Assembly (NCBI GenBank): GCA_947165485.1
Contig: CAMVAP010000001.1
Coordinates: forward strand, 1-64,000
Reading direction: 5' to 3'
Source: an uncultured Prevotellaceae bacterium
GTDB taxonomy: Bacteria; Bacteroidota; Bacteroidia; Bacteroidales; Muribaculaceae
Length of the DNA stretch: 64,000 nucleotides
Shown one piece after another: positions 3,701 to 59,808 of this stretch. Position 1 is the stretch's first letter, and every line of letters begins with the position of its first letter. A program made the position numbers and the translations under genes. The notes beneath the pieces were generated by a model that saw only the letters and a program-made list of their open reading frames with translations, searched no databases and was not told the DNA's origin.

Positions 3701-5339
3701 CTATCATGGCACGTTCACCCTCAGCTCGTCAACAGGTGACAGCCGGACCATTGACATCCCCGAAGGGAGTGCCGCATATGCTGACCGCGATTATGAAGCC
3801 ATCTTTACGGGCATCAGCACTGGTGACGTGATTACCATAACAGGTACTCACGTGCATGACGGTATCCTCTATAACTACTCACCTGACTTCAAGTACATCC
3901 ATGTCTATGTAGAAGGTGGCCATGACGGTATCAGCGAGAATACCCCGCTCAACCTGGCGGCTATCAATTTTGTCGATCAGTTCAAGGCCGAGACCGATAA
4001 GGACCAGCACCCCAAGCGTTACGGCTATGTGCTCAAGCTGGTGGGCGGTACCGACGAGAGCGGTAAACCCGAGGTTCCCGTGCAGCACACCGGTTCCAGC
4101 TTATATGGCTACTACTCGCTGAACCAGATCCAGAACGACACCAAGGCTCCGCTGCTCCAGATGAACGTCATGAACGCCGATGTCAACATGACACTGTCTC
4201 GCGACCCCGAGATTTACTACTTCACCCTGGACCGCAAGTCCAACACCGACGACACCTGGGAGGAACTCTCAGAGCTGCAGAGACGTGAAGACGATAGCTA
4301 CCAGGAGCTGGACAGCAAACTGGACCAGTATAACCAGCAGATCTGCAACCCGCCCGCCGAGTCAACCACTCCGTGGATCGTTGATCGCTATGACAACGAC
4401 GTCATGACGGGTGAGTACAACTCCTCGATGAGCTATGTGCCCATCATCTGGACCCATGGCGACCAGAATAACAGGCGCGTGAAGTGGAACACCGAGGAGA
4501 GGCACAACAGCTATGGTGCCCCCATCTGGATGACTGGTGTGGCCCAGGTCAATTTGACCCAAGCCGTAGCCGAACGCCAGGAGGACGCTTCGACCAAGTG
4601 GACCTATGGCGGCGAGAACTGCAGCCTCTACATGCTTGACAAGATCGAGGCCGTTGCCAAGTTGCCCACCGTCAACAACGTCACCTATGTGCCCTATATG
4701 TTCCGCATCTTTGTCAGGAGTAATAACCACAAGCTGCGCGGCTACAGGAGAGTTGCCGATGGCGAGGATCCCAACATGCCTTCTTCACACTTCGTCGGTG
4801 ACGCTATCGACGACGATGCACTGCAGTGCGTGTGGAGCGGATATGTCAACGATTTGAACAACGACGCCTATGGCGTGACCATCTCCAATCCCGATCCCAA
4901 CACCTATGTCTTCCACAAGAACAAGGTGGATCGCACCAATCCCAATGGTGGCGCATGGGACAAGGACAAGGTATATAACGCCATCTTTGCCGGACTGGAG
5001 AACATTGTCACGGGTACCAAGCCCAACTATACCATCAATCCTGAGGACCTGACGATTGTGGTACGTTTCTACTACCTCGTCGAGGGCTTCAATACCGCCG
5101 CACCTGGACAGCAGCGCAATGGCGACGGTAACGATGATCCTGCCGGCTATGGTGCCGAAGGTTCGGGTGATCCCGGTGGTTGGACTGGCGTGAGCAACCT
5201 CCTGTTCAACAAGACCATCGAGAGCGTGACCTACGTTAATCCGCAGGGTATGCAGAGTGACAAGCCGTTCAGTGGTGTGAACATCGTGATCACCCGTTAC
5301 AGTGACGGCAGCGCCACGACCGCCAAGGTGGTACGTTGA
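735..5339 (+). CDS. Large secreted beta-rich protein with T9SS-type C-terminal domain
   Basis: About 1534 residues, exported: a Lys/His start, a hydrophobic stretch and AQAQ cleavage motif in the first ~30 residues. The open frame reaches a TTG at 699, but ATG 735 or 747 fits better because MKHKLTII there aligns with MRNKLTII of the gene at 6052. Two related beta-sandwich modules (near 1240-1720 and 3120-3440) each end in a TY-W-I motif, and a third variant lies near 3600-3920. The last ~200 residues resemble the C-terminus of the protein at 7612 and end in a GVNIVITRYSDG...KVVR tail, which I read as a T9SS sorting domain variant. The modules at 1240-1720 and 3120-3440 are visibly more AT-rich than the 3' third. 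No enzymatic domain recognised; adhesin or matrix protein is a guess. Confidence 0.85.
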   Translation: MDKMMKHKLTIIMSCLLLAVGWTSTAQAQLKPEFMAQKKHKVSSASSVGIPGAKNVMKVSNALFMREDAGVKNFANHNGKLQAPNRAPRRADITASATHVRSWYASKKYDWYDANGNRHPDVSITEPATDPYQIAYLLGTTYMNPEIPGLKYSAVTAADNPYPNIEFGWDIPNNARWSGNSAVSAGTYYPGVTISVPSYNMTLRSITVYGQNNTVLTSWDAVTAWNNGEYNSFTSDGNTYYYFTLPGWYCSDYLIDFYENSVDYGYMMGQNHIFIPSTYLNGNSSIRVVIRAYSDEDGEMLTVNGEDKPVTNSLDTYTWTITGTNTAATASVTPPTENGYTVFLVKVKDGTGAAPAYTYTWNSGSTSLIDYFDNYIDEVQLLTDGTRLNETTDDAGTMFSYSGELNRFYFLGKGNDYWWGSSQSDWAPHLAPTYDMYEEFSPTTTANGAQTEDFYSKLLYGNSYNVIHDCRGMNYLQHYFSMSGNAGTDHKSMTNLVFWIPDSRGKYNQREYDEDHLPHVGLYTITLEAEAKPADSYSTSNRKYEVTCDWVSSLNTILDFDVDQDYELWIYTYDNNGNPVAEEKVTDLIVDENGLIHNSTTHSYLVDQNPESYTIVYRVKGWPKDATNSPGKDPENGTFYALSNLAPVLIPGYNDFLSLDVAHYESDFDLNSEHNYYRNFLSVDNQNSDNALTASRIENNENHYQLWRYDVAKPNETMTKAADLQFTVANSKVEYDITYDNQFYVDEANIYNEKTKSALSGYTDPNALGCPTHGEIAKISEGGGEVPPVTYDDITITPSGTAVNFTRIAVVSGNTTITEWAYPTSSLNSDWNCTSAFNVSSWYGCGFTSGTITIPASLFSSYSNIKLQITAYGDNSSTSITVNGVQTGITTSSATYNWDILPTGGATGFTMLNNYLDNSTYTQVGQVVFDLPWKSIQVKLQEESAGSASGYFFIQNNGRLRFIMPAGYNNANLRFVIHNATAGDDGSNYYHGTFTLSSSTGDSRTIDIPEGSAAYADRDYEAIFTGISTGDVITITGTHVHDGILYNYSPDFKYIHVYVEGGHDGISENTPLNLAAINFVDQFKAETDKDQHPKRYGYVLKLVGGTDESGKPEVPVQHTGSSLYGYYSLNQIQNDTKAPLLQMNVMNADVNMTLSRDPEIYYFTLDRKSNTDDTWEELSELQRREDDSYQELDSKLDQYNQQICNPPAESTTPWIVDRYDNDVMTGEYNSSMSYVPIIWTHGDQNNRRVKWNTEERHNSYGAPIWMTGVAQVNLTQAVAERQEDASTKWTYGGENCSLYMLDKIEAVAKLPTVNNVTYVPYMFRIFVRSNNHKLRGYRRVADGEDPNMPSSHFVGDAIDDDALQCVWSGYVNDLNNDAYGVTISNPDPNTYVFHKNKVDRTNPNGGAWDKDKVYNAIFAGLENIVTGTKPNYTINPEDLTIVVRFYYLVEGFNTAAPGQQRNGDGNDDPAGYGAEGSGDPGGWTGVSNLLFNKTIESVTYVNPQGMQSDKPFSGVNIVITRYSDGSATTAKVVR

Positions 5340-5351
5340 CCTGATGGCTAG

Positions 5352-5461
5352 TTATTAGGTATTAGGCTTTAGGCTTTAGGTTTTAGGCATTAGGCTTTAG
5401 GCATTTGCTGATGCCGACTAAGAACTAAGAACTAACAACTAAAAACTAAAAACTAAAAATA
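5352..5461. repeat. Two facing heptamer arrays
   Basis: From 5352 to 5407 TAG recurs exactly every 7 bp (consensus GCTTTAG, about seven units). From 5413 to 5461 the unit is ACTAAAA or ACTAAGA (about six units). CTAAA is the complement of TTTAG, so the two arrays face each other and could pair. Similar 7-bp arrays lie at 19066-19113 and 20301-20359. Confidence 0.75.
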
Positions 5462-5482
5462 TAATACTATCTTTGCATGTGG

Positions 5483-5523
5483 GCAAGGGTTCGCTGTCGA
5501 TAGCGGGCCCTTGCTCTTTTTTT
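5483..5523 (+). terminator. Intrinsic terminator-like hairpin
   Basis: GCAAGGG (5483-5489) pairs with CCCTTGC (5508-5514), with an inner CGCT/AGCG stem, followed by a run of seven T (5517-5523). This is the best candidate terminator for the large gene ending at 5339. A TAtcTTTG box at 5468-5475 sits just before it. Confidence 0.6.
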
Positions 5524-5604
5524 AAATAAGTTTCGCAAGTAGATAACTTGCTCACTGTTGATTGTTTATAAGGTTAATGTTTAATGAAATTTCGCTCCAA
5601 ACCC

Positions 5605-5700
5605 TGAAGCCCGTTAGGGCTGGCCAGGTCATCATAGGCAGGGTGTTGAGCGAAGCTGAAGCCCGTTAGTGCAGGCCAGGTCCTGGTCGTCCCTAACGGG
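5605..5700. repeat. 26-bp direct repeat with inverted CCCGTTAGGG motif
   Basis: 5605-5630 and 5657-5682 are near-identical, starting TGAAGCCCGTTAG and ending GGCCAGGTC, 52 bp apart. CCCGTTAGGG (5610-5619) faces its complement CCCTAACGGG (5691-5700), so the block can fold. It lies in the gene-free stretch 5340-6051; between 5701 and 5800 I see nothing further. Confidence 0.55.
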
Positions 5701-5800
5701 ACTCTCCCCCGGACACCACTTAATTGGTATAACTCGCGTAATTAGCCGATGAGTCAGGGTGCCAGGATTGAGTAATTTTAATTTTTTCCTGTAAAAAAGT

Positions 5801-5830
5801 GTTGTGAATTAATTTTTGTATTTATCTTTG
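5801..5830 (+). promoter_or_regulatory. Bacteroidetes promoter for the 508-aa secreted protein
   Basis: GTTG at 5801-5804, 18 bp, then TAtcTTTG at 5823-5830. Predicted start of transcription near 5836 gives a leader of about 215 nt before the ATG at 6052. The leader is GC-rich near 5931-5998 and contains GGCCC-cccga-GGGCC. Confidence 0.6.
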
Positions 5831-6051
5831 CACGGTGCAAAGGGTATTATGCAGGAAGCAAGTAACATAGCTCAATGATTGTGTGTATGTGAGTGATAGG
5901 ATGTGAAGAGTAGAGATGTTTCCACCCGCGACTTGCCCGCCTTTATGGTACCCCCGCGTCTCGTGAGCCGCCCTATAGTGGCCCCCCGAGGGCCGTCCAG
6001 TTTTTCAATAAAGTAACCAGAATTATTAACTATTTAATACAGAATAGAAAG

Positions 6052-7578
6052 ATGAGAAACAAACTAACAATTATCCTGTTCGGCCTGCTCCTAGCAGTAG
6101 GCTGGACCCACGCGATGGCCCAACAGCAGCCAACTGCGTCTCCTGCAGAGCGCCTCGCGCTCTCGGTAGTGGACAACGTGAGTGTGTACGATCCCGTAGC
6201 ACAAACCAACACCTACACCAACACGTTGCAACTCACGCAACCAGCCAACAACAAGCTGACCGCAGGTATGCTTAAGAATGGTGACAACATCATCACCATT
6301 GCCCGCCAAGGAGTGAGAGATGGTCAAAACTTCGGTGCCTCTGCCGATGTTGCCACCATCAAGCTCAACGCCGTTAAAACGACCCCAAGTCTTGAGGTTA
6401 TTAATCAAATAGACTTCGTTAATGATGGTGGTAGTCTTCCTTCTCAAATGGAATATTTCACTAATGCTCAGCTACAAGCGATTGACCCTAATTGGAGTAG
6501 CTCATCAAATGGTGAGGGCTTGGTTAGAACTACCGAAGGATCTGTTTTTTCAAGAGACTATGATGGTTTAACATTCACTGTTCCAAATGGTTATAGTAAT
6601 GCTACTGTAAAGTTTACTGTTTCTGTCGGCTCTAACGCAAATGGAGGATATTTCACATATCAAATCAACAGTGACAGTTGGAGCGTTTGCGCAGGTAATG
6701 TAACGGCCAATAGTACAGTTAATTGGGTATTTAGCGACATTAACAGTGGTGATATCATCAGCTTTTTAGGTGCCAGTGTCTCCAATGGCCAGTTAGGTTT
6801 AGATATCACCCCTTACATAAAATCTATCAAAATCGAGCTTATACCCGTATCCTACATGCCCTCTATTGATGTGATCTATAATGGTGTTACCAATTCTTAC
6901 TCGCCAAATGACTTCATCAATTTGTCGGTTCTGGGGAATGTAACAGATGTATTCAGTGTGGAAACTGCCGACAACAGCCATCCTGACGCTTATTCCTACA
7001 AGGCTGATTTTGATGCTGACATTGTATTACCCGAGCCTGGAACAACAGGAATGGACTTTAGTGCTACAGCAGACTTCACAGCATGTACAACCACCAATTT
7101 GACTTCAGGCACATTCACAGGCTATAATGGATGGTCATTTAATGATAGTTTCGCAGATCAAGATGACAACGATAACATTATTGGCTACATCGAGTACTAT
7201 GGTTCTATTCTCTTCACTATGCCTGCTAACTTCATGGGCAGCACGGTAAATGTTACCGTCACGTCAGGTCCGTGTCTCGACCATGATGGTTCTGGTGTCC
7301 TCTATGTCAACGGGGTTGAGCATACATTCAATGGTGTATCAACCTATACATGGAATGTACCCGTCTATGCCAATGGTGTTATTGAGTTTAAAGCTCCCAG
7401 CAACACTTGGTCGGCTGATATTGCAAGTATCGCAATCACTAGTGGCAATGGTTCATCGATGAATGCACCCATAATTCAGAAGAAGAGCCATAATGATAGT
7501 GGCACTTTACTGAAACGCTCATCAGATAAAGCTGGAAGGGTTACTAGAATCCTCAACTCAAATCTAATGAGGGAATAA
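6052..7578 (+). CDS. Secreted beta-sandwich protein without sorting domain
   Basis: 508 residues. The signal peptide (MRNKLTIILFGLLLAVGWTH, cut near AMA-Q) is nearly the same as in the upstream 1534-aa protein, so the two are paralogous at least at the N-terminus. Two copies of the recurring module are visible: one near residues 160-260 (FTVPNGYSNATVKF) and one near 385-475 (FTMPANF...TYTWNV). It ends in a basic tail, RSSDKAGRVTRILNSNL, not in the KVVR-type domain of its neighbours. Only 33 bp separate it from the next gene, so co-transcription is likely. Function unknown. It could be a truncated relative, or a periplasmic or released protein. Confidence 0.8.
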   Translation: MRNKLTIILFGLLLAVGWTHAMAQQQPTASPAERLALSVVDNVSVYDPVAQTNTYTNTLQLTQPANNKLTAGMLKNGDNIITIARQGVRDGQNFGASADVATIKLNAVKTTPSLEVINQIDFVNDGGSLPSQMEYFTNAQLQAIDPNWSSSSNGEGLVRTTEGSVFSRDYDGLTFTVPNGYSNATVKFTVSVGSNANGGYFTYQINSDSWSVCAGNVTANSTVNWVFSDINSGDIISFLGASVSNGQLGLDITPYIKSIKIELIPVSYMPSIDVIYNGVTNSYSPNDFINLSVLGNVTDVFSVETADNSHPDAYSYKADFDADIVLPEPGTTGMDFSATADFTACTTTNLTSGTFTGYNGWSFNDSFADQDDNDNIIGYIEYYGSILFTMPANFMGSTVNVTVTSGPCLDHDGSGVLYVNGVEHTFNGVSTYTWNVPVYANGVIEFKAPSNTWSADIASIAITSGNGSSMNAPIIQKKSHNDSGTLLKRSSDKAGRVTRILNSNLMRE

Positions 7579-19065: not shown

Positions 19066-19113
19066 CTAAACTAAAAACTAGAAACTAGAAACTAGAAACT
19101 AGGGACTAGAAAC
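19066..19113. repeat. CTAGAAA heptamer array between grpE and dnaJ
   Basis: About six units of CTAAAAA/CTAGAAA/CTAGGGA with a strict 7-bp period, ending 13 bp before the dnaJ ATG. Related arrays lie at 5352-5461 and 20301-20359. Confidence 0.75.
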
Positions 19114-19125
19114 CAATAAAGAACT

Positions 19126-20304
19126 ATGGCTCAAAAGAGAGATTACTATGAGGTGCTTGGGGTGGACAAGAACGCCACTGCCGATGACTTGAAAAAAGCT
19201 TATCGCAAACTAGCCATCCAGTACCATCCCGACAAGCAGCAAGGCAAGAGCGACGCCGAGAAGAAGGCTGCCGAGGAAAAATTCAAGGAGGCTGCCGAGG
19301 CCTATAACGTCCTCAGCGACCCCGACAAGCGTGCACGCTATGACCAGTTTGGTTTTGATGGCGAGCAGATGGGTGGCGGTGGCTTTAGCGGCGGCATGTC
19401 GATGGATGACATCCTGCGGCAATTTGGAGACCTGTTCGGCGGATTCGGCGGCTTTGGCGGATTCGGTGACTTCTTTGGCGGCGGTGGCGGCGGCGGTCAG
19501 TCTCAGCGCGTGAAGCGTGGAACCGACCTGCGCGTGCGTGTCAAGATGACACTCAACGAGATTGCCAAGGGTGCTGAGAAGAAACTCCGCATCCCCCGCA
19601 TGAAGTCTTGTGACCATTGCCACGGCACGGGTGCCAAGGACGGAACGGCTCTGGAGACTTGCCCCACCTGCCACGGATCAGGTGTTGAGGTGAGGATGCA
19701 GCGCACCATGTTTGGCACGATGCAGTCACAGAGCGTGTGCCACACCTGTGGTGGCAGCGGCAAGCACATCAAGGAGTCTTGCCCCCATTGCCACGGCAAG
19801 GGACTCTTGCGCAAGGAGGACGTGGTGAGCATCAGCATCCCTGCCGGTGTGGCCGACGGCATGACCCTGCGTATGGGACGCCAAGGCAATGATGCCCCTG
19901 GTGGCGGCATCCCTGGTGACCTGCTCGTGGTGATTGAGGAAGTGCGTGACGCACAACTCACCCGTGATGGTAATGACCTCATTTACAATCTGATGCTTGA
20001 TATTCCCACTGCCGTGCTCGGTGGCAAGGTGGATGTCCCCACCGTTGATGGCAAGGCGCGCGTGACCATCAAGCCCGGTACACAGCCCGGTAGCATCTTG
20101 CGCCTGCGTGGCAAGGGATTACCCTCGCCCGAGCGCTATGGTACGGGCGATCTGCTCATCAATGTCATGGTCTATATGCCCGAGAAGCTGAACGACAAGG
20201 AGAAAGAAGCCATCACCATGCTCCAAAACAGTGGCGAGCACGTCAAGCCCAGTGAAGGTGATAAGAGCCGCATCTTCTCCCGCCTGCGCCACATCTTTGA
20301 CTAA
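19126..20304 (+). CDS. dnaJ: Chaperone protein DnaJ
   Basis: 392 residues. Co-chaperone that stimulates DnaK ATPase. J domain with HPD at residues 34-36, a Gly/Phe-rich region (about 83-125), four zinc-binding repeats [24 protein letters not shown] and CPHCHGKG, then the two substrate-binding beta domains. Complete type I DnaJ of normal length. Its stop codon (20302-20304) is the first CTAAC-like unit of the heptamer array that follows. Likely co-transcribed with grpE. Confidence 0.98.
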
Positions 20305-20359
20305 CAACCAACAACTAACAACTAACAACTAACAACTAACAACTAACAACTAACAACTA
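20301..20359. repeat. AACTAAC heptamer array overlapping the dnaJ stop
   Basis: About eight units of CTAACAA with a 7-bp period; the dnaJ TAA stop lies inside the first unit. The array ends 9 bp before the next start codon (20369), so it forms nearly the whole dnaJ-rluA spacer. Confidence 0.85.
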
Positions 20360-21291: not shown

Positions 21292-22980
21292 TTAGAACGG
21301 CGGTTTGATGGGCTGGCTTCCATCATCATGGTTTGACTTCTCTTCTCTAGTGCTGGCGTCAACATCCTCGTTGCGCTGGCGCAGGTCCTTGATGTAGGCC
21401 AACTCGCGGATAGCATAATCGGCATTGTCCTCCTCACCCAGCATCTGGGTGAAGATTTTCTCAGCTTTGTCAAGCTGGTTGAAGTTGATGTAGGCGTAGC
21501 CACGGCGACGGCGCAGGAAATTGATGAAGTCCCTGATGCTATCAGGCATCTCCTCGTCCTCGCTGAAGTTGCGTTTCACCTCATCCATTACGGCCTCGGT
21601 GTAGCTGAACAGGCGCACGTCCTTGCCGTTGGCCATCGTGTTGACCATCTCCATCGTGTGACGGATGTTGCCGTCGTTGCTTGTGAGGTCAAGGTAGTAG
21701 AATGCCTGTTTGTACAAGCCCAGTTCGTTGTAGCAGAAGCCCAGCTTGTAGGCCGTTTCCAGAAACATGCGCTTGCCCTCGGGACCCATCTCAAAGAAGT
21801 CGCAGCGGTAGCTGTTGTACACGTTCTCCAGATAGAGTATCGCCTCATAGTAGCGTCCGCTGTTGAACGCCTGAATACCCCAGTACATGTTGTAGGCCAC
21901 GTCAGCGACCCTGACTTGGCCCAGCAGCAGCTGGTCTTCGGTCAGGCTGTCTTTCTCGCCATTGTGCGCCTTGAGCTGGGCATCGCTCCACATGTACTCA
22001 AACTCCTGCTGGCGCTTCTTGTCATCGTTGCGGTCCAGAGCGATGAGCAGGCTCACGCTGTGGGGCTGGCGGCCCTCGTTGCTCAACGAGTTCTGTCGGC
22101 TGGCATTGCGGGGCTGTATGGTGACGGTAACGCGGCTGTAGATGCTGCGGTCATCCTCGCCCTCGGCAGTGATGCTGATGGTCGCCATCATCGGCTTCTC
22201 GTCGCGGCCCTGTTTGTAGTGAAGGTCGATGAGGGCATAGTCGCGGGCCAGACGCGCTTCTTTGCCAGTCCCTTGTACCAGGGCATGGCGCAGGTCGTAG
22301 TTGCGGATGGACGTTTCGTCCTCGATACGCTGCTGACCGCTAACGGTGTTCACGGTCATGAACAGCAGTTGGCACTCGAGCAACGGGTTGATGGTTTCTA
22401 GCAGTTGCCATAATGACAGGCTACCTGTGCCAGCAGAGATACTGGTGACATTCGCACCCATCTGGTGGGACAATTCCAGGCGGCGCAACAAGAACATCTC
22501 TCGGTGATGCTTGTATAACTCACTCTCCATATCGATGTCCTCATAGTCCTTGCTGATGGATACGGCCTCGTCATAGTCGCGTATCCAGTGGCGCTGGAAG
22601 TGAAATGCGGCTTTCAGCTCGCTCAGCATCGTGTTGGCGTCAAAGGTGTTATTGAAGAACGACAGATGAACGCTCACCTGGCTGTCCTCATGGTCGAGCG
22701 AGTAGGTGAACTTGAACAGGATGTTGCTGTTATTGTGTTCGTTGCACTTAGAGCGCACAAGGGGCAGTTGGGAAACGGGAACGGTGGTGATCGAGGGAAA
22801 GGTCACATCGACGCAGTCATCCTGCTGACGGATGGCAGCGACAAAGTGGCCGGCTTGAAACTCAAAGTTGAAGTAGGTCGCACCGTTTTCCTCCTGGTTG
22901 ACGGTATAGGTGCAGTTGTAATCTTTGAGAAATTTTTCAAAGTTAGCCTTTATCGAGTCTTTTTTCTTCCTAATGCGCAT
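21292..22980 (-). CDS. TPR-like protein of unknown role
   Basis: 562 residues from the ATG at 22980 (MRIRKKKDSIKANFEKFLKDY); the open frame extends further upstream but without a plausible start. The N-terminal ~130 residues resemble a YbjN-like sensory/chaperone fold. The C-terminal third is helical with TPR-like repeats (GIQAFNSGRYYEAILYLENV, LGFCYNELGLYKQAFYYLDL, INFNQLDKAEKIFTQML). No signal peptide, so probably cytoplasmic. It is common in Bacteroidales but, to my knowledge, uncharacterised. May form a loose minus-strand unit with the two genes upstream. Confidence 0.8.
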   Translation of the reverse strand: MRIRKKKDSIKANFEKFLKDYNCTYTVNQEENGATYFNFEFQAGHFVAAIRQQDDCVDVTFPSITTVPVSQLPLVRSKCNEHNNSNILFKFTYSLDHEDSQVSVHLSFFNNTFDANTMLSELKAAFHFQRHWIRDYDEAVSISKDYEDIDMESELYKHHREMFLLRRLELSHQMGANVTSISAGTGSLSLWQLLETINPLLECQLLFMTVNTVSGQQRIEDETSIRNYDLRHALVQGTGKEARLARDYALIDLHYKQGRDEKPMMATISITAEGEDDRSIYSRVTVTIQPRNASRQNSLSNEGRQPHSVSLLIALDRNDDKKRQQEFEYMWSDAQLKAHNGEKDSLTEDQLLLGQVRVADVAYNMYWGIQAFNSGRYYEAILYLENVYNSYRCDFFEMGPEGKRMFLETAYKLGFCYNELGLYKQAFYYLDLTSNDGNIRHTMEMVNTMANGKDVRLFSYTEAVMDEVKRNFSEDEEMPDSIRDFINFLRRRRGYAYINFNQLDKAEKIFTQMLGEEDNADYAIRELAYIKDLRQRNEDVDASTREEKSNHDDGSQPIKPPF

Positions 22981-28134: not shown

Positions 28135-28437
28135 GCGAGCAGGTCGAAGGCCTGCGCAAGGCCGCTGGCCTTGAATTGAGGCAACCCCAGGGCGCACTGG
28201 CCGAAGGTCAGTGAGGCCTGGGGAGAGACGCTCATGTCGATATGGGCCCTGAAGGGGGCCACTCACTACGACAAGCGCACCATAGTCAAATTGCCTGATT
28301 CTGACGTTATTGGCCCTCTTCGAGGCCCGCTCCTATTATGGTCTGCTTTCCCTAGGCCACACTGACCTTCGGCCAGTGCGCCCTAGGGTTAAGAATAGTC
28401 AAGGCCGCTGGCCTTGTGCAGGCCTTCTGCCTGCTAG
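28135..28437. repeat. Inverted pair of multi-hairpin REP-like units
   Basis: The left unit (28135-28223) and right unit (28349-28437) are inverted, imperfect copies. Each carries the hairpin CAAGGCC-gct-GGCCTTG (28157-28173; 28400-28416), a GAAGGCCTGC segment and a larger hairpin built on GGGCGCACTGGCCGAAGGTC. The ~125-bp centre holds GGCCC..GGGCC hairpins too. It lies between two convergent genes, the usual site of REP/BIME elements. Two short open frames inside are by-products of the GC-rich hairpins. Confidence 0.65.
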
Positions 28438-53064: not shown

Positions 53065-54570
53065 TCAGCAATTCGATTTATTCACCCGGCTGGGTTCAAC
53101 ACTATCGCGACTGGTTGCGATACCCGTTGGTGCAACGGCATCCCCCACGATATTTTTAAAATCTTTCCAAACGGGTGCTGCAAGATAAGCTGCTAATGAC
53201 GCCGCTGGCACATGGAGTGTCGCAGAATTTGTCATATAAAGAATGTTGGTAAAAGTAGATTCGCAACATTTAGGAGGAGTGGTTGCGTAACAATAGACGT
53301 CGTTTAGATGGATACAGCAAGAGAATGCCCCTTCGCCGATGTAAGTGACGGAGTTGGGGATGCTGACGGTGGTCAGGTTAGAGCCGGAAGAGAAGGCACC
53401 ATCTGCTATTCCTGTGGTCCCTTCTCTTAGTGTAATGCTTGTTCCTTCGGGCATGTCACCTTTGTATCCATAAGCGACCAATCCTGCATAGACCCATCCG
53501 TCAGGTTGGTTGTCGTACCAAGCGGTGCCATCGAACGCCTTGAAGGCAATGGTTGTGACGGAGTTGGGGATGTTGATGGTGGTCAGGCTGGAGCAATTAT
53601 TGAACGCTTCATAGCCGATGGTCGTGACGGAGTTGGGGATGTTGATGGTGGTCAGGTTGGAGCAATTATTGAACGCACCTTCGCCGATAGAAGTGACGGA
53701 GTTGGGGATGGTCGTGTTCATGCAACCAGCAATTAATGTATTGGTTGCCGTTTCGATAATGGCATTGCAGTTGTTGCGAGAATCGTACTTTGGATTATCG
53801 CTAGCTACTGAGATGGTGGCTAGGCTGGAGCAGCCAGAGAACGCAAATGGCTTGATGGTCGTGACGGAGTTAGGTATGTTGATGGTGGTCAGGCCGCTGC
53901 AATTATTGAACGCTTTATAGCCGATGGTCGTGACGGAGTTGGGTATATTGATGTTAGTCAGGTTGGAGCAGCCAGCGAACGCGCCGCCGATGATGGAAGT
54001 GACGGACTTGGGGAGGCCGGCCGAGTCATAGAACGACGCGCAGCCGCCGATAGAAGTGACGGAGTTGGGGATGGTCGTGTTCATGCAACCAGCAATTAAT
54101 GTATTGGTTGCCGTTTCGATAATGGCATTGCAGTTATTGCGAGAATCGTACTTTGGATTATCGCTAGCTACCGAGATGGCGGCTAGGTTGGAGCAGCCAG
54201 CGAACGCCCCGTCATCGATCGAAGTGACGGAGTTAGGGATGGTGATGTCGGTTAGGTTGGAGCAGCTACCGAACGCAAAGAAGTCGATGGAGGTGACGGG
54301 GTAGATTGTGTCGCCGTGGGTAATGGCGGCGGGGATGGTTAGCACGCTGGGGTATTCTTTGGAGTATTCATTGGAGAATTTAATGAGAGATTCGTAATAA
54401 CGTGATCCCATGAAGGGAACGGTGGCGGTGCTGCCTTTGATGCTGTAGTAGATGCCGTTAACCTTGAACTTGGAGCCTGATTTTGACACACTCTTTTTGC
54501 CAGAGCATGATACCATGGCCAGCAATAGTAGGGGCAGCAGCAGTAGGGTGGTATTGGTGAGATGTTTCAT
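53065..54570 (-). CDS. BspA-type leucine-rich repeat lipoprotein 1
   Basis: 501 residues from ATG 54570. Lipoprotein-like signal (LLLLAMVSCSGKK). The body is a chain of ~23-residue LRR_5 units of the type SVTSIGEGAFNNCSNLTTINIPN, interrupted twice by a 35-residue cassette (NPKYDSRNNCNAIIETATNT) at DNA 53704-53808 and 54067-54171, and by a TAWYDNQPDGWVYAG unit. Ends VWKDFKNIVGDA without a sorting domain. BspA-like proteins bind host or microbial partners at the surface. First of three tandem paralogues; promoter duplicated with the gene. Confidence 0.92.
   Translation of the reverse strand: MKHLTNTTLLLLPLLLLAMVSCSGKKSVSKSGSKFKVNGIYYSIKGSTATVPFMGSRYYESLIKFSNEYSKEYPSVLTIPAAITHGDTIYPVTSIDFFAFGSCSNLTDITIPNSVTSIDDGAFAGCSNLAAISVASDNPKYDSRNNCNAIIETATNTLIAGCMNTTIPNSVTSIGGCASFYDSAGLPKSVTSIIGGAFAGCSNLTNINIPNSVTTIGYKAFNNCSGLTTINIPNSVTTIKPFAFSGCSSLATISVASDNPKYDSRNNCNAIIETATNTLIAGCMNTTIPNSVTSIGEGAFNNCSNLTTINIPNSVTTIGYEAFNNCSSLTTINIPNSVTTIAFKAFDGTAWYDNQPDGWVYAGLVAYGYKGDMPEGTSITLREGTTGIADGAFSSGSNLTTVSIPNSVTYIGEGAFSCCIHLNDVYCYATTPPKCCESTFTNILYMTNSATLHVPAASLAAYLAAPVWKDFKNIVGDAVAPTGIATSRDSVEPSRVNKSNC
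53704..54171 (-). repeat. Two copies of the 105-bp LRR cassette
   Basis: 53704-53808 and 54067-54171 are nearly identical and also match 56633-56737 and 56939-57043 (a diverged fifth copy at 57245-57349) in the third paralogue. All are in frame (35 codons). Confidence 0.8.
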
Positions 54571-54642
54571 GATGAGATATTGTTTAGTTGTTATTTTCCT
54601 GGTGTTATTATGCAATGTTGCGGATCGCTTGCAATCCAATGG

Positions 54643-54674
54643 CAAAGGTAGGGCTTTCCCATGGAAAGTGCAAA
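54643..54674 (-). promoter_or_regulatory. Promoter of LRR gene 1
   Basis: Minus strand TTTG (54674-54671), 20 bp, TAccTTTG (54650-54643). The surrounding ~150 bp is repeated before LRR genes 2 and 3. Confidence 0.75.
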
Positions 54675-54831
54675 AAATCAGGGCGCCCCATTTTTATAAT
54701 AAAAAACAACTGGAACAACTTGGACAACTATTTTGTTGAATGATAGATGTTTGTGTAGCTATTATGTGCGATTCGTTAGCAGGGGTAACGGTGGTCAGCA
54801 ATTCGATTTATTCACCCGGCTGGGTTCAACA

Positions 54832-56133
54832 CTATCGCGACTGGTTGCGATGCCCGTTGGTAGCGTCGGCATCCCCCACGATATTTTTATAATCCTTCCA
54901 AACGGGTGCTGCACGATATGCTGCTAATGACGCCGCTGGCACATGGAGTGTCGTAGAATTTGTCTTAGAAAGAATGTTGGTAAAAGTAGATTGGCAACAT
55001 TTAGGAGGGGTGGTTGCGTAACAATAGAGGTCGTTTAGATGGATACAGTCTGAGAATGCCCCTTCGCCGATGTAAGTGACGGAGTTGGGGATGTTGATGG
55101 CGGCAAGGTTGGAGCAGTTAGAGAACGCAAAGTCAGCAATTCCTTTTGTCCCTTCTTTTAGTGTGATGGTTGTTCCCTCAGGCTTGGTGCCTTTGTATTC
55201 ATAAGCGACTAATCCTGCATAGACTAATCCGTCAGGTTGGTTGTCGTACCAAGAGGTGCCAGAGAACGCATCATAGCCTATGGCTGTGACGGAATTTGGG
55301 ATGTTGATGGTGGTCAGGCTGGAGCAGCCAGAGAACGCATAGGAGCCGATGTAAGTGACGGAGTTGGGAATGTTGATGGTGGTCAGGCTGGAGCAATTAT
55401 TGAACGCACCTTCGCCGATGTAAGTGACGGAGTTGGGGATGTTGATGGCGGCAAGGTTGGAGCAGTTAGAGAACGCAAAGTCAGCAATTCCTTTTGTCCC
55501 TTCTTTTAGTGTGATGGTTGTTCCCTCAGGCTTGGTGCCTTTGTATTCATAAGCGACTAATCCTGCATAGACTAATCCGTCAGGTTGGTTGTCGTACCAA
55601 GAGGTGCCAGAGAACGCATCATAGCCTATGGCTGTGACGGAATTTGGGATGTTGATGGTGGTCAGGCCGCTGCAATTATTGAACGCTTTATAGCCGATGG
55701 TCGTGACGGAGTTGGGTATATTGATGTTAGTCAGGTTGGAGCAGCCAGCGAACGCGCCGCCGATGATGGAAGTGACGGACTTGGGGATGTTGATGTTGGT
55801 TAGGCTGGAGCAGCTAGAGAACGCATAGGAGCCGATGGAAGTGACAGAGTTGGGGATATTGATGTTGGTTAGGTTGGAGCAGTCACGGAAAGCAGAATAG
55901 CTGATGAAGGTGACGGGATAAGTTTTGTTATTGTAGGTGACGGTGGCGGGGATGGTCACCGAGCCAGAGTATTCATTGGAATACTGGGAAGGTGATGATC
56001 CCTTGTAGGTGACGAAGGCGGTGGTGCCGATGATGTAGTAGTAGATGCCGTCGACTTCGATGTCGTGGGCGTGGGTGAGGGTTGGCAGTAATAGGGCCAG
56101 CAGCAGGAGGGTGGCTTTGATGAGATGTTTCAT
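54832..56133 (-). CDS. BspA-type leucine-rich repeat protein 2
   Basis: 433 residues. Signal peptide (LLLALLLPTLTHAHD) lacks the lipobox cysteine of its two neighbours, so it should be released or anchored differently. LRR_5 units throughout. An exact ~258-bp block occurs twice (55061-55318 and 55409-55666; offset 348 bp = 116 codons), giving two copies of TSWYDNQPDGLVYAGLVAYE and the next LRRs. Ends ATNGHRNQSR. Part of the tandem family, probably made by duplication and gene conversion. Confidence 0.92.
   Translation of the reverse strand: MKHLIKATLLLLALLLPTLTHAHDIEVDGIYYYIIGTTAFVTYKGSSPSQYSNEYSGSVTIPATVTYNNKTYPVTFISYSAFRDCSNLTNINIPNSVTSIGSYAFSSCSSLTNINIPKSVTSIIGGAFAGCSNLTNINIPNSVTTIGYKAFNNCSGLTTINIPNSVTAIGYDAFSGTSWYDNQPDGLVYAGLVAYEYKGTKPEGTTITLKEGTKGIADFAFSNCSNLAAINIPNSVTYIGEGAFNNCSSLTTINIPNSVTYIGSYAFSGCSSLTTINIPNSVTAIGYDAFSGTSWYDNQPDGLVYAGLVAYEYKGTKPEGTTITLKEGTKGIADFAFSNCSNLAAINIPNSVTYIGEGAFSDCIHLNDLYCYATTPPKCCQSTFTNILSKTNSTTLHVPAASLAAYRAAPVWKDYKNIVGDADATNGHRNQSR
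55061..55666 (-). repeat. Exact internal duplication in LRR gene 2
   Basis: 55061-55318 equals 55409-55666 over the whole length as read by eye. Offset 348 bp keeps the frame. Flanks diverge sharply on both sides. Confidence 0.85.
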
Positions 56134-56205
56134 GATGAGGTATTATTTAGTTGTCATTTTCCTGGTGTTATTATGCAATGTTGCGGATCGCTTGCAATCC
56201 AATGG

Positions 56206-56237
56206 CAAAGGTAGGGCTTTCCCATGGAAAGTGCAAA
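56206..56237 (-). promoter_or_regulatory. Promoter of LRR gene 2
   Basis: Minus strand TTTG (56237-56234), 20 bp, TAccTTTG (56213-56206); same sequence context as the promoter at 54643. Confidence 0.75.
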
Positions 56238-56395
56238 AAATCAGGGCGCCCCATTTTTATAATAAAAAACAACTGGAACAACTTGGACAACTATTTTGTT
56301 GAATGATAGGTGTTTGTGTGGTTATTATGTGTGATTCGTTAGCGGGGGCAACAGTGGCAGTCAATTCGATTTATTCACCCGGCCGGGTTTCAACA

Positions 56396-57865
56396 CTATC
56401 GCGACTGGTTGCGATACCCGTTGGTAGCGTCGGCATCACCCACAATCTTCTTGAACTTGCTCCAAACGGGGGCTTTATGATAAGCTGCTAATGACGCCGC
56501 TGGCACATGGAGTGTCGCGGAATAGTTGATATAACAAGAGTTCTCGCATCTAGGGGGAGTGGTTGCGTAGCAATAGACGTCTTTTAAAGAAGGACAATCC
56601 AGGAACTCCTCGTTGATGGAAGTGACGGATTTGGGGATGGTCGTGTTCATGCAACCAGCAATTAATGTATTGGTTGCCGTTTCGATAATGGCATTGCAGT
56701 TGTTGCGAGAATCGTACTTTGGATTATCGCTAGCTACTGAGATGGAGGTTAGGCTGGAGCAGCTATAGAACGTATGGTCGCCGATGGAAGTGACGGAGTT
56801 AGGGATGCTGATGTTAGTCAAGCCAGAGCAGCCTTCGAACGCCATGTCGCCGATGGTCGTGACGGAGTTGGGGATGTTGATGGAGGTTAGGCTAGAGCAG
56901 TTAGAGAACGCCTCGTCGCCGATGGAAGTGACGGATTTGGGGATGGTCGTGTTCATGCAACCAGCAATTAATGTATTGGTTGCCGTTTCGATAATGGCAT
57001 TGCAGTTGTTGCGAGAATCGTACTTTGGATTATCGCTAACTACTGAGATGGAGGCTAGGCCAGAGCAGCCCAGGAACGCCCAGCCGTCGATGTTTGTGAC
57101 AGAGTTGGGTATGTCGATGCTGGAGAGGGAAGTACATTCGGCGAACGCAATCCACTGGATCGAAGTGACGGAGTTTGGGATGTTGATGGCGGTTAGGCTG
57201 GAGCGGCCCAGGAACGCCCCGGCGCCGATGGAAGTGACGGAGTTAGGGATAGTCGTGTTTTTGCAACCAGCAATTAATGTATTGGTTGCCGTTTCGATAA
57301 TGGCATTGCAGTTGTTGCGAGAATCGTAGTTTGTGTTATTACTAGCAACTGAGATGTTTTCAAGGCTAGAGCAGCATGAGAATGCAGAGTTAGTGATGTC
57401 TGTGACGGAGTTGGGTATGTTGATGCTGGTTAGGCTGGAGCAGCCATCGAACGCCTCGTCGCCGATGGAAGTGACGGAGTTGGGGATGTTGATGTTGGTT
57501 AGGCTGGAGCAGCCTCGGAACGCATAGCGGTCGATGTTTGTAACGGATTTGGGTATATTGATGTTGGTAAGACCGTAGCAGTGATCGAACGCGCCGTAGC
57601 CGATGGAAGTGACGGAGTAGGTCGTGCCGTGGTAGGTGACGGTAGCGGGGATGGTCACCGAGCCAGAGTAATCATTGGAAAACTGGGAATCTGATGTTCC
57701 TTTGAAGGTGACTTCGACTTCATTGCTATTGATTTTGTTGTAGATGATGCCGTTGACCTCGAACGTGGAGTCTGAATTTGGCACACTCTGATTGCCAGAG
57801 CATGATATCATGGTCAGCAATAGTAGGGCCAGCAGTAGGAGGGTGGCTTTGATGAAATGTTTCAT
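56396..57865 (-). CDS. BspA-type leucine-rich repeat lipoprotein 3
   Basis: 489 residues. Lipoprotein-like signal (LLLLTMISCSGNQS). About ten LRR_5 units (SVTSIGDEAFDGCSSLTSINIPN) interspersed with three 35-residue NPKYDSRNN-type cassettes (DNA 56633-56737, 56939-57043 and a diverged one at 57245-57349). C-terminus VWSKFKKIVGDADATNGY matches gene 2. Surface adhesin-like protein without T9SS tail. Confidence 0.92.
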   Translation of the reverse strand: MKHFIKATLLLLALLLLTMISCSGNQSVPNSDSTFEVNGIIYNKINSNEVEVTFKGTSDSQFSNDYSGSVTIPATVTYHGTTYSVTSIGYGAFDHCYGLTNINIPKSVTNIDRYAFRGCSSLTNINIPNSVTSIGDEAFDGCSSLTSINIPNSVTDITNSAFSCCSSLENISVASNNTNYDSRNNCNAIIETATNTLIAGCKNTTIPNSVTSIGAGAFLGRSSLTAINIPNSVTSIQWIAFAECTSLSSIDIPNSVTNIDGWAFLGCSGLASISVVSDNPKYDSRNNCNAIIETATNTLIAGCMNTTIPKSVTSIGDEAFSNCSSLTSINIPNSVTTIGDMAFEGCSGLTNISIPNSVTSIGDHTFYSCSSLTSISVASDNPKYDSRNNCNAIIETATNTLIAGCMNTTIPKSVTSINEEFLDCPSLKDVYCYATTPPRCENSCYINYSATLHVPAASLAAYHKAPVWSKFKKIVGDADATNGYRNQSR

Positions 57866-57969: not shown

Positions 57970-58051
57970 AAATTAGGGCGATTATTGTACAGGCCAAAGG
58001 CCTGCACTACCACAACATGCTGCACAGGGATGGGATGGGTGCTGCGGGGAG

Positions 58052-59566
58052 TCATGGTTTAGTTGACGCCGGGGCTGTGGCAATGCCACAGCACGGGGAA
58101 CCGTTTGGGAGGGGCGGAAGTGTTAATGAATTGTTAATTGAGGGGACGGTGGTACCCTTGGGGAGCAGTGGAACATCAACGCCCCGCCCTGATGGGATGA
58201 ACTTTGAGGAAGAGGCAGCGACGGAGTCGCTGCATACATTGACCCTGTCGCGGGTGGCCGTGCTGGCGCTGTTGCATGCTGAGGTGGCAGCGACGGAGTC
58301 GCTGCATACGCTGACCCTGTCGCGGGTGGCCGTGCTGGCGCTGTTGCATGCTGAGGTGGCAGCGACGGAGTCGCTGCATACGCTGACCCTGTCGCGGGTG
58401 GCCGTGCTGGCGCTGTTGCATGCTGAGGTGGCAGCGACGGAGTCGCTGCATACGCTGACCCTGTCGCGGGTGGCCGTGCTGGCGCTGTTGCATGCTGAGG
58501 TGGCAGCGACGGAGTCGCTGCATACGCTGACCCTGTCGCGGGTGGCCGTGCTGGCGCTGTTGCATGCTGAGGTGGCAGCGACGGAGTCGCTGCCCACGCT
58601 GACCCTGTCGCGGGGCTCGTTGCCCTTATCGCTGGTCGCGGTGGGGGTGGTGTCTTTTTTGACGGGGGTGGTTTCGTGGGGGAGGTTGTCGGTGTCGATG
58701 GTGAAATGGAACTCGCTGATGTCGGGGTGACAACTGAGGTCGTAGCTGATGGTGTGGCGGACGGTGGTGACTTCGCGCTGGGTGGAGAGCGAGAAGACGT
58801 CGTTGGCGTTCATGAATAGTTGCTTGCCGAGGTTGCCTGTGGTGCTGGCTTTCTTGCTGAGATGGTTGTAGCCAATGAAGAGAAAGGCGGTGTTGCTGTG
58901 GTTGAGAACATCGCGGACGACGTGGATTACCTCGGTGGCGATGTTGATGCCGCAGTGGGGCATGAAATGGTCGATGTCATCGATGACGACGAGGTCGGGC
59001 TTCTTATTCTTGATGAGGGTCTCGATGGCTCGGTTGATGTACCAGAAGTCGTAACGCTGGCCGCCGAGGATGTCGAGGCAGATGAAGTGGAGGTCTTGCT
59101 TGTGGATGGCATGGGCTGCGAGCTCGCGGTAGATGGCGGCGCTGATGTGGGGGCCGTGGAGGGTGTCAATCCAGAGGACCTTGCAGCGGCTGCAGCGGGG
59201 GGAGGGAGCGAGGGAATCGCTGCCCACGCTGACCCTGTCGCTATTGCGGGCGGTGGGGGCAGCGACGGAGTCGCTGCATACATTGACCCTGTCGCGGGTG
59301 GCCATGCTGGTCTTGTCGTTGTTGATATTGTTGTTATCGCTGGTGAGGACTTGGATGGCGAGGTGCTTGGCGAAATGGTGGGCACGGCAGGTCTCCTTGC
59401 CAGTGAGGTAGGTGACATGGTGCTGGCGCAGGATGGGCTGGCCGTTGATGGTGACCAGTGGCTTGATAGTGAAGTCGCTGAGATTGGTGTCACATGTGAA
59501 CTGGCAGGATTCCCACGCTTCCTGGGTACCCTGGCTGTTGGGCTGACGATAATAGTTGATTTCCAT
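58052..59566 (-). CDS. RecA-like ATPase relative with eroded P-loop and tandem repeat tail
   Basis: 504 residues, no signal peptide. Residues ~48-300 follow the RecA/RepA-like ATPases of Bacteroidetes mobile elements: VTYLTGKETCRAHHFAKHLA at the Walker A position (no GxxxxGK[ST]), KVLWIDTLHGPHIS, Walker B DLVVIDDIDHFM (191-202) and a TGNLGKQLFMNANDVFSL segment. A repeat-derived insert (about 89-121) sits between P-loop and the next strand, and residues ~318-470 are six copies of a 24-residue unit containing RDRVSVCSDSVAA. ATP hydrolysis is doubtful. It may be a domesticated or decaying replication/mobilisation protein. Own promoter upstream. Confidence 0.75.
   Translation of the reverse strand: MEINYYRQPNSQGTQEAWESCQFTCDTNLSDFTIKPLVTINGQPILRQHHVTYLTGKETCRAHHFAKHLAIQVLTSDNNNINNDKTSMATRDRVNVCSDSVAAPTARNSDRVSVGSDSLAPSPRCSRCKVLWIDTLHGPHISAAIYRELAAHAIHKQDLHFICLDILGGQRYDFWYINRAIETLIKNKKPDLVVIDDIDHFMPHCGINIATEVIHVVRDVLNHSNTAFLFIGYNHLSKKASTTGNLGKQLFMNANDVFSLSTQREVTTVRHTISYDLSCHPDISEFHFTIDTDNLPHETTPVKKDTTPTATSDKGNEPRDRVSVGSDSVAATSACNSASTATRDRVSVCSDSVAATSACNSASTATRDRVSVCSDSVAATSACNSASTATRDRVSVCSDSVAATSACNSASTATRDRVSVCSDSVAATSACNSASTATRDRVNVCSDSVAASSSKFIPSGRGVDVPLLPKGTTVPSINNSLTLPPLPNGSPCCGIATAPASTKP
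58214..58614 (-). repeat. 72-bp tandem repeat with internal hairpin
   Basis: Five full units (58214-58285, -58357, -58429, -58501, -58573) and a partial sixth, nearly identical. Each unit starts with the perfect palindrome GCAGCGAC-gga-GTCGCTGC (first at 58215-58233). 72 bp = 24 codons, so copy number can change without frameshift. Further single copies lie at 59259-59277 and, degenerate, near 59208. Confidence 0.92.
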
Positions 59567-59610
59567 GGTGTTTTTCTTGGTTTTATAATTGATAATAATT
59601 ATAGTTGATG

Positions 59611-59642
59611 CAAAGGTAGTAAATTATTGAGGGCTTGTCAAG
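59611..59642 (-). promoter_or_regulatory. Promoter of the RecA-like gene
   Basis: Minus strand CTTG (59642-59639), 20 bp, TAccTTTG (59618-59611). Confidence 0.6.
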
Positions 59643-59666
59643 AGGGATGGGGTGGTTTTCTTATCT

Positions 59667-59808
59667 TTCTCGACGGCTCCGCCGTCGAGAACGGGACACG
59701 TTGCGGTGTTTGCTGGACGGACTGGATGGGACTTTATAATAAAAAAACAACTGGAACAACTTGGATAACTATCTGATTGATTGACAGTTGTTTGAGTTGC
59801 TCCAGTTG
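59667..59808. repeat. Two palindromes upstream of the RecA-like gene
   Basis: TTCTCGACGGC-tcc-GCCGTCGAGAA (59667-59691) is a perfect 11-bp stem. CAACTGGAACAACT (59748-59761) pairs with AGTTGCTCCAGTTG (59795-59808) with one mismatch and may end the OPT transporter transcript (stop at 59838). The CAACTGGAACAACTTGG motif also occurs upstream of LRR genes 1 and 2. Confidence 0.6.

Follow-up and report, generated by a model that had tools for sequence, protein, structure and literature searches.

The window, the whole 64,000-nucleotide stretch of DNA analyzed here, contains at positions 58052..59566 on the minus strand a single open frame with an ATG start that encodes a protein of 504 aa. We refer to this gene and its homologues by a label of our own, c0. 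The open frame, its homologues, and a profile match identify the product as a diverged AAA_25/RepA-like protein. The minus strand encodes a degenerate P-loop, TGKETCRAHHFAK (TGKETCRAHHF, 59366..59404), a Walker B-like LVVIDDIDH (58967..58993), and, in frame past a tandem array, the C-terminal motif SINNSLTLPP (58112..58141), which is common to many of 20 aligned proteins. Ahead of the gene is a promoter-like TTGACA-n-TACCTTTG (59611..59641, minus strand). The corresponding pattern, TTGACA-n-TAnnTTTG, recurs upstream of c0 homologues, being found at 16 of 30 c0 genes, that of the window included, versus 42 of 5,800 random 200-bp windows, in keeping with the promoter that a first-pass annotation had assigned to the gene.

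Upstream of c0 in the window is a gene for an OPT transporter (PF03169), present in 94 of 101 congeneric genomes, and the gene at 56399-57865 was confirmed to encode a BspA-type LRR protein. The genes at 53549-57865, which adjoin the putative inserted unit described below, have internal repeats of 69, 138, 306, and 348 bp. Elsewhere in the window, another hairpin, CAAGGCC-n3-GGCCTTG, lies at 28157-28173 and 28400-28416; it recurs in other genomes, at 7529 in locus L065 and at 11764 and 11982 in locus L068. Arrays of 7-bp tandem repeats (ACTAACA, ATTAGGC, and others) are located at 5354-5469, 19068-19113, and 20300-20359.

Examination of the c0 frame revealed seven exact GCAGCGAC-TCC-GTCGCTGC hairpins and one degenerate hairpin, all in frame, confirming the palindromic repeat-derived sequence noted in the first-pass annotation in the core and as six copies in the tail. 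On the plus strand, the exact palindrome GCAGCGACGGAGTCGCTGC starts at 58215, 58287, 58359, 58431, 58503, 58575, and 59259. Six of these copies make up the tandem array in the tail (58211..58614, minus strand), which is built of 72-bp units and encodes repeats of RDRVSVCSDSVAATSACNSASTAT; TRF placed it at 58214-58614, with a period of 72, 5.6 copies, and 98% matches. The seventh exact copy (59255..59289, minus strand, frame 0) encodes VNVCSDSVAA in a core loop, as does the degenerate copy (59201..59235, minus strand) for VSVGSDSLAP, whose palindrome, at 59205, has three mismatches. With up to three mismatches allowed, the palindrome was matched nine times in the window, versus 0.44 expected by chance, and none of 100 shuffles reached nine; the ninth match, at 22835, looks unrelated.

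A single-sequence search found c0 relatives in 23 of 61 congeneric genomes, G004, G025, and G059 giving no more than weak RepA-like matches. A profile search (E ≤ 1e-10) matched 32 of 101 genomes, of which G025 was again RepA-like, leaving 31 with c0 or a fragment of it. The absence of c0 from a draft genome is uncertain, since G052 was scored as lacking c0, yet its contig C103 begins, by eye, with a c0-like C terminus. In a family-wide sample, c0 was present in 15 of 297 genomes, all within one of 30 genera. The records among the matches listed are titled as uncultured Bacteroidales, Prevotellaceae, Muribaculaceae, and Porphyromonadaceae MAGs, with one labelled Coriobacteriaceae (L078); some come from water-buffalo omasum or roe-deer abomasum, and RUG in the record names presumably stands for rumen. 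Relative to its nearest homologues, the window gene shows about 55-69% identity in the core, rising to as much as 75% in the N-terminal segment.

All c0 proteins aligned depart from Walker A, GxxxxGK[ST], and have TGxxxCxAH in its place. Residues T55, G56, C60, A62, H63, and A66 at the P-loop position, and D196, D199, H200, and C205, which lie in the Walker B strand or beyond it, are invariant among the 26 aligned members. The altered P-loop, found in 26 of 26, is therefore a family trait, and decay of this motif in the window gene, as which it had earlier been read, was rejected. Comparison of the c0 family by hhalign with AAA_25-type proteins of the same genus (two proteins, one of them assigned to AAA_25) gave 97.4%, with E 9.1e-12 over 281 columns, in agreement with the RecA/RepA-like core that had been proposed; Pfam matches of single c0 sequences were below cut-off. 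Judged by these profiles, the c0 family is a genus-restricted, diverged relative of the AAA_25/RepA-type ATPases. Solved structures gave no match for the window protein, and with the c0 profile only FtsY (E 0.014-0.017). For two proteins, the best E in PHROGs was 0.025, and PADLOC yielded no match. A viral origin was considered and rejected, no viral relative of c0 having been confirmed in a search of viral_contigs.

In many c0 homologues, [IV]N[NT]SLTLPP comes after a C-terminal segment whose place in the window protein is taken by the array, the motif being retained; the segment is also absent from the homologues at L011, L013, and L014, by alignment, and L031 and L032, by sequence. Simple Nei-Gojobori counts over 247 codons of the core, made against 18 homologues, gave pN of 0.18-0.36 and pS of 0.31-0.64, with pN below pS in 17 of 18 comparisons, the exception being L076. 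The dN/dS of the window core was approximately 0.16 to 0.57, and above 1 versus L076.

The hairpins associated with c0 share, genus-wide, a GTC-n-GT, an 8-bp stem, and a 3-nt loop. Among hairpins with a 3-nt loop and a stem of at least 6, a GT 12 nt before the loop was found for 53 of 83 on the gene strand within 600 bp of c0, versus 24 of 334 farther away. Fifty-two such elements align gap-free, with 99.5% standard pairs and both-sided changes at seven of eight pairs, the pairing and the GT being in part a product of selection because the rows were picked for perfect stems of at least 6 and for the GT. The tetranucleotide 5' of the hairpin is GT[AG]G in 21 of the 52, GT[AG]T in 25, and other in six. 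From these elements, a covariance model, R1, was built; two plus-strand hairpins considered unrelated, the minus-strand hairpins, and duplicate rows had been excluded beforehand. R1 scored the array copies at 33.0-34.4 bits each and the exact core-loop copy at 34.5 bits, all of them training members, and the degenerate copy at 9.1 bits (E 3.7).

In the genome from which the window comes, R1 at E ≤ 1 matched at least 32 places, at least 23 of them outside the window, and at least 20 of these at E ≤ 0.01. At E ≤ 5e-4, at least 64 of 101 congeneric genomes had R1 hits, including all 31 with c0 or a fragment and at least 33 of the 70 without a c0 hit. In the latter, the same elements are scattered between genes of ordinary kinds, as seen in 20 stretches, one of which, L180, proved to hold a c0-like end. 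Confinement of the repeat class to the window gene was rejected on the R1 hits elsewhere in this and congeneric genomes, as was a requirement of the REPs for c0, on the hits in genomes without it. Hits of R1 also lie within about 125 bp of contig ends in this genome (G000; contigs C64, C28, C77, C36, C70, C85, C8, and C89), which suggests that REP arrays break the assembly and are hence under-counted.

In build, these repeats are REP-like, and we take them for REP elements of the RAYT (REP-associated tyrosine transposase) kind. Hits of R1 flank 19 of 20 RAYT loci at E ≤ 0.01, the remaining locus, L143, having one only at 0.045, and three lie beside a putative RAYT gene on contig C20 of the window genome. 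None were found at that genome's six other Y1_Tnp loci (L087-L092), of which L092, a weak Y1_Tnp match near a contig end, might be RAYT-like. Relatives of RAYT are present in at least 80 of 101 genomes. Both putative RAYT frames examined in the window genome contain DHLH, together with YIDDNP in L093 (by pattern) and YLQDNP at C20 (by eye); against the REP_Tyr_transpos profile NF047646, the genome's own RAYT gave E 6e-9 and 35.9 bits, below the cut-off of 80. The frame on C20 (L109:1547-2296) ends at 277 aa, stop to stop, versus 323-341 aa in three other RAYT frames, and a second short frame follows it.

Since R1 was trained on elements near c0, a second model, R2, was built from 78 elements located away from c0, some at RAYT loci and others in genomes lacking c0 hits; these were themselves chosen by R1, and the absence of c0 at the training loci was judged by eye from frame lists, L180 being excluded. 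The in-gene GCAGCGAC copies, on which R2 was untrained, were not recognized by it: the array copies received 3.4-4.6 bits, and the exact core-loop copy 1.9 bits over its inner nine bases only. Their membership rests on architecture, namely the GTC-n-GT spacing, and on near-identical tagged stems elsewhere, from which we infer that they are members of the REP family rather than look-alikes.

Such near-identical tagged stems were found at loci L046, L050, L055, and L080. In L080 the element GTCCCGTGGGCAGCGGCTCCGCCGCTGTC adjoins c0, and in L055 (genome G087) the element GGGTCAATGTGTGCAGCGGCTCCGTCGCTGT is intergenic. The exact hairpin occurs twice in genome G006, one copy being in frame inside a DNA_alkylation gene; in this DNA alkylation repair gene (L050:1039-1905, G006:C12), the Pfam match is split into two stretches. 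With up to two mismatches allowed, the palindrome was found in 14 of 101 genomes, some matches having no GT tag, versus four matches in four genomes for a reversed-pattern control. It had been considered that the repeat might be confined to this gene and explained by simple slippage. As to the exact stem in its own genome, this held: in 3.03 Mb and 100 contigs, the stem with any 3-nt loop occurs at seven places, all within c0, and the tail array is a tandem expansion. It did not hold for the near-identical tagged stems, which one relative has between genes and another has in frame in its repair gene.

A tagged hairpin is present in the core loop in five of 18 c0 loops (the window, L061, L063, L072, and L078), always in frame 0; L072 is not an intact c0, its match starting only at residue 113 and its frame before the loop being unlike c0. 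When six related coding loops were compared, the 8-bp pairing was complete (8/8 pairs, G-U included) in five, and it is kept in L061 and L078 despite differing residues (QAS versus RAT). The loops are not independent, since three of the six carry one identical stem. A further stem type was seen by eye at the same loop position in L152 and, by its residues, in L062.

The REPs co-localize with c0 and share its orientation. Over 31 c0 loci (521 kb), R1 at E ≤ 0.0073 gave 95 hits, its own training elements included, and every one of them has the orientation of c0. Of these, 46 precede the gene and 27 follow it by no more than 600 bp, 13 lie inside it, and nine are elsewhere; the gene limits of L071, L072, and L077 had been set by hand. 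A hit lies near or inside c0 at 28 of the 31 loci; L060, L066, and L067 have none at this cut-off. R2 at E ≤ 0.01, applied to the window and the 31 loci, gave, counted by eye, 59 hits, again all on the c0 strand, of which six are far from c0. In ten c0-bearing whole genomes, R2 at E ≤ 0.001 gave at least 124 hits, at least 73 of them away from c0 and the listed RAYT genes. Within 600 bp of c0, a share of 43.7 kb of about 29.9 Mb (0.15%), 23 hits were found where about 0.2 would be expected, and 23 of 23 are on the c0 strand. The c0 list for these genomes has 20 entries, five of them lengthened by eye to the full frame, and includes fragments, one of them a 32-aa remnant (G009:C19). At least 28 R2 hits neighbor listed RAYT genes (13 in the orientation of the gene and 15 against it), a share that is favored by the several training elements of R2 taken from RAYT loci of these ten genomes. 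R2 thus keeps the c0 enrichment found with R1, though losing the in-gene subtype.

The window c0 is itself flanked by two REP-like hairpins on the gene (minus) strand, both of them R1 training members. The downstream one (57984..58018) scored 32.9 bits with R1 and 33.8 bits with R2, which was untrained on it, whereas the upstream one (59666..59700) scored 23.7 bits with R1 and 5.6 bits with R2, which does not see it. Behind the OPT gene, genomes G097, whose OPT gene is 99% identical, and G026 run straight into the LRR gene, without c0. Their flanks align with those of the window down to 59733 and from 57979 on, with 8 bp between in place of 1,753 bp in the window, and the same empty sequence was seen by eye in G054 and G006. 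In-gene hairpins in frame and empty sites in relatives are thus both observed. The clean empty site in close relatives indicates that a unit of 1,753 bp (57980..59732, minus strand; flank alignments with L224 and L229, and L239 and L241 by eye), consisting of the gene and a REP near each end, was probably inserted at the window locus. Of this REP-bounded insertion without counterpart in close relatives, the first-pass annotation had made no mention. The edges of the unit lie 32 bp before the upstream and 4 bp after the downstream hairpin. Insertion was not seamless, 8 bp having been replaced, and no target tetranucleotide was identified for the unit at this locus. Among 20 regions fetched from behind OPT genes, five (G040, G043, G068, G081, and G025) have a RAYT gene at the same spot.

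Judged from its neighbors, mfd is a second locus at which c0 is present or absent. Among 30 mfd loci, c0 adjoins mfd in G007 and G089, and a partial c0 in the opposite orientation does so in G017; in five others a simple finder detected a REP-like hairpin without c0, and 22 have neither. The gene that follows mfd in G059, which lacks c0, was found beyond c0 in L064 (92% identical) and L056 (87%). In two pairs of copies, each within one genome, similarity is kept across c0 and lost around it. Similarity between L058 and L063 spans 1,269 bp, beginning 138 and 91 bp before the start and ending 46 and 44 bp behind the stop, respectively. That between L084 and L086 (97% over 1,434 bp) begins 200 and 199 bp ahead of the start and ends at about the stop, and an extra 261-bp block at 79% lies upstream. 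The pairs L082/L083 and L056/L064 are syntenic and hence uninformative on the ends of the unit, and comparison of L080 with L083 gave no match. On the contig of L086, a second, shorter c0 frame lies upstream of the full one, at about 5337-6285, with R1 hits adjoining.

The reading that we favor, with a probability of roughly two in three, is that REP copies entered c0, a functional solitary gene, in frame, and that c0 itself resides in a REP-bounded unit moved in trans by RAYT. The REP copies would land in frame at two tolerant places of c0, namely its C-terminal region and the variable loop that links the P-loop to the following strand, and one copy in the tail would have been amplified as a 72-bp tandem repeat, which, the unit being 24 codons, keeps the frame. 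Having a REP hairpin close to either end, both in the orientation of the gene, the c0 unit would resemble the ends of IS200/IS605 elements, and RAYT, acting in trans on single-stranded hairpins, would most likely have moved or copied it to its place between the OPT transporter and LRR genes. Given that REP-like hairpins bound c0 and repeatedly enter it in one orientation, and that the unit is cleanly present or absent in close relatives, a REP-bounded unit moved by RAYT is the most economical explanation. The role of RAYT as mover we infer; the in-gene inserts would presumably be harmless, and a function of c0 is likewise presumed. A bolder version, possible in our estimation but doubtful, is that c0 units are non-autonomous elements of a new class, in which direct REP hairpins carry a solitary gene for a RecA-like protein and which RAYT moves in trans. 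The nucleotide pocket, now rich in Cys and His, might bind metal, the protein might act on the same hairpins, and REP insertion would be a continuing source of protein segments. Both the IS200-like geometry and the metal site in c0 are our own reading.

It is conceivable instead that c0 is an older, immobile gene whose surroundings attract or tolerate REPs as passive colonizers, and that the relatives lost it by deletion. The REPs found without c0, the REP-like hairpins in frame in an unrelated gene, and the c0 loci common to several genomes are all in keeping with this idea. We nevertheless consider it unlikely, as four relatives, including that with the 99%-identical OPT, have an identical empty sequence whereas the core of c0 is only about 55-69% identical to its closest homologues, and as 23 of 23 hits share the strand of the gene. 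The sense-only orientation also raises the prospect that the hairpins are working parts of c0, bound as RNA or DNA by its protein in autoregulation or in its own activity, so that copies are selected. The pairing kept in five of six coding loops despite residue changes, and the invariant C60, H63, H200, and C205, which hint at an altered active site, would be explained as well. The same elements, however, lie beside RAYT and unrelated genes, their stems vary widely between loci, three of 31 loci have none at the cut-off, and one stem recurs unchanged in three of the six loops, all of which makes this account improbable. Least credible, and in our view very improbable, is a decaying ATPase gene full of simple slippage repeats. 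The tandem 72-bp array and the loss of the C-terminal segment found in most homologues would fit such decay, but the degenerate P-loop is common to all aligned members, the frame is open with its C-terminal motif retained, the repeats are built like a dispersed hairpin family, and the low pN relative to pS does not favor it. The colonization by a selfish repeat proposed in the first-pass annotation was thus borne out; the decay of the gene, also proposed there, is not favored.

The favored reading, a RAYT-moved c0 unit, hints at a transposase that may transport an entire gene as well as tiny repeats. Whether RAYTs only spread REPs or also move genes is made testable by the occupied and empty sites, REP-bounded ends, and in-frame REP-like segments within one genus, and the core loop illustrates that one place in a protein can repeatedly gain new sequence from a selfish hairpin. 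In a limited survey of the literature on RAYT, REPIN, and TnpAREP, we found no case of a passenger gene moved by RAYT.

Both end hairpins of IS200/IS605 elements are on one strand, and the c0 unit is similar in having hairpins near both ends on the same strand with a tag 5' of the hairpin; it differs in containing no internal HUH transposase, the likeness being drawn from sequence geometry. One account describes IS200/IS605 elements as bearing subterminal hairpins at either end, with a guide-like tag on their 5' side (PMC6006769). As portrayed in two papers, REPs are short dispersed hairpins with a 5' GT tag that flank RAYT (TnpA-REP) genes (PMC3733652, PMC6006769). These papers also describe REPs in frame inside genes, including DNA-repair genes (PMC3733652), and within tnpA-REP genes of subclass 2.4 (PMC6006769), and Rickettsia palindromic elements inserted in frame in protein genes (PMC3733652). 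The latter resemble the c0 hairpins as palindromes in frame in protein genes but are a different element, and in c0 several stem types recur in one loop and one copy was amplified sixfold. Compared with AAA_25 (RepA-like) ATPases, c0 shares the profile similarity, the Walker B, and in many homologues the C-terminal segment; unlike them, it has lost the P-loop in all aligned members and is a solitary gene restricted to one of the genera sampled. The c0-linked hairpins are like REPs of the RAYT systems in being short, GT-tagged, dispersed, RAYT-flanking, and in some cases in frame. They differ in the near-even presence of GT[AG]G and GT[AG]T and in that they bound, and are enriched at, a gene family other than a transposase, in a single orientation. 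In-frame insertion alone, having been described already, is not new; a solitary gene bounded by REPs is, to our knowledge, a new variant.
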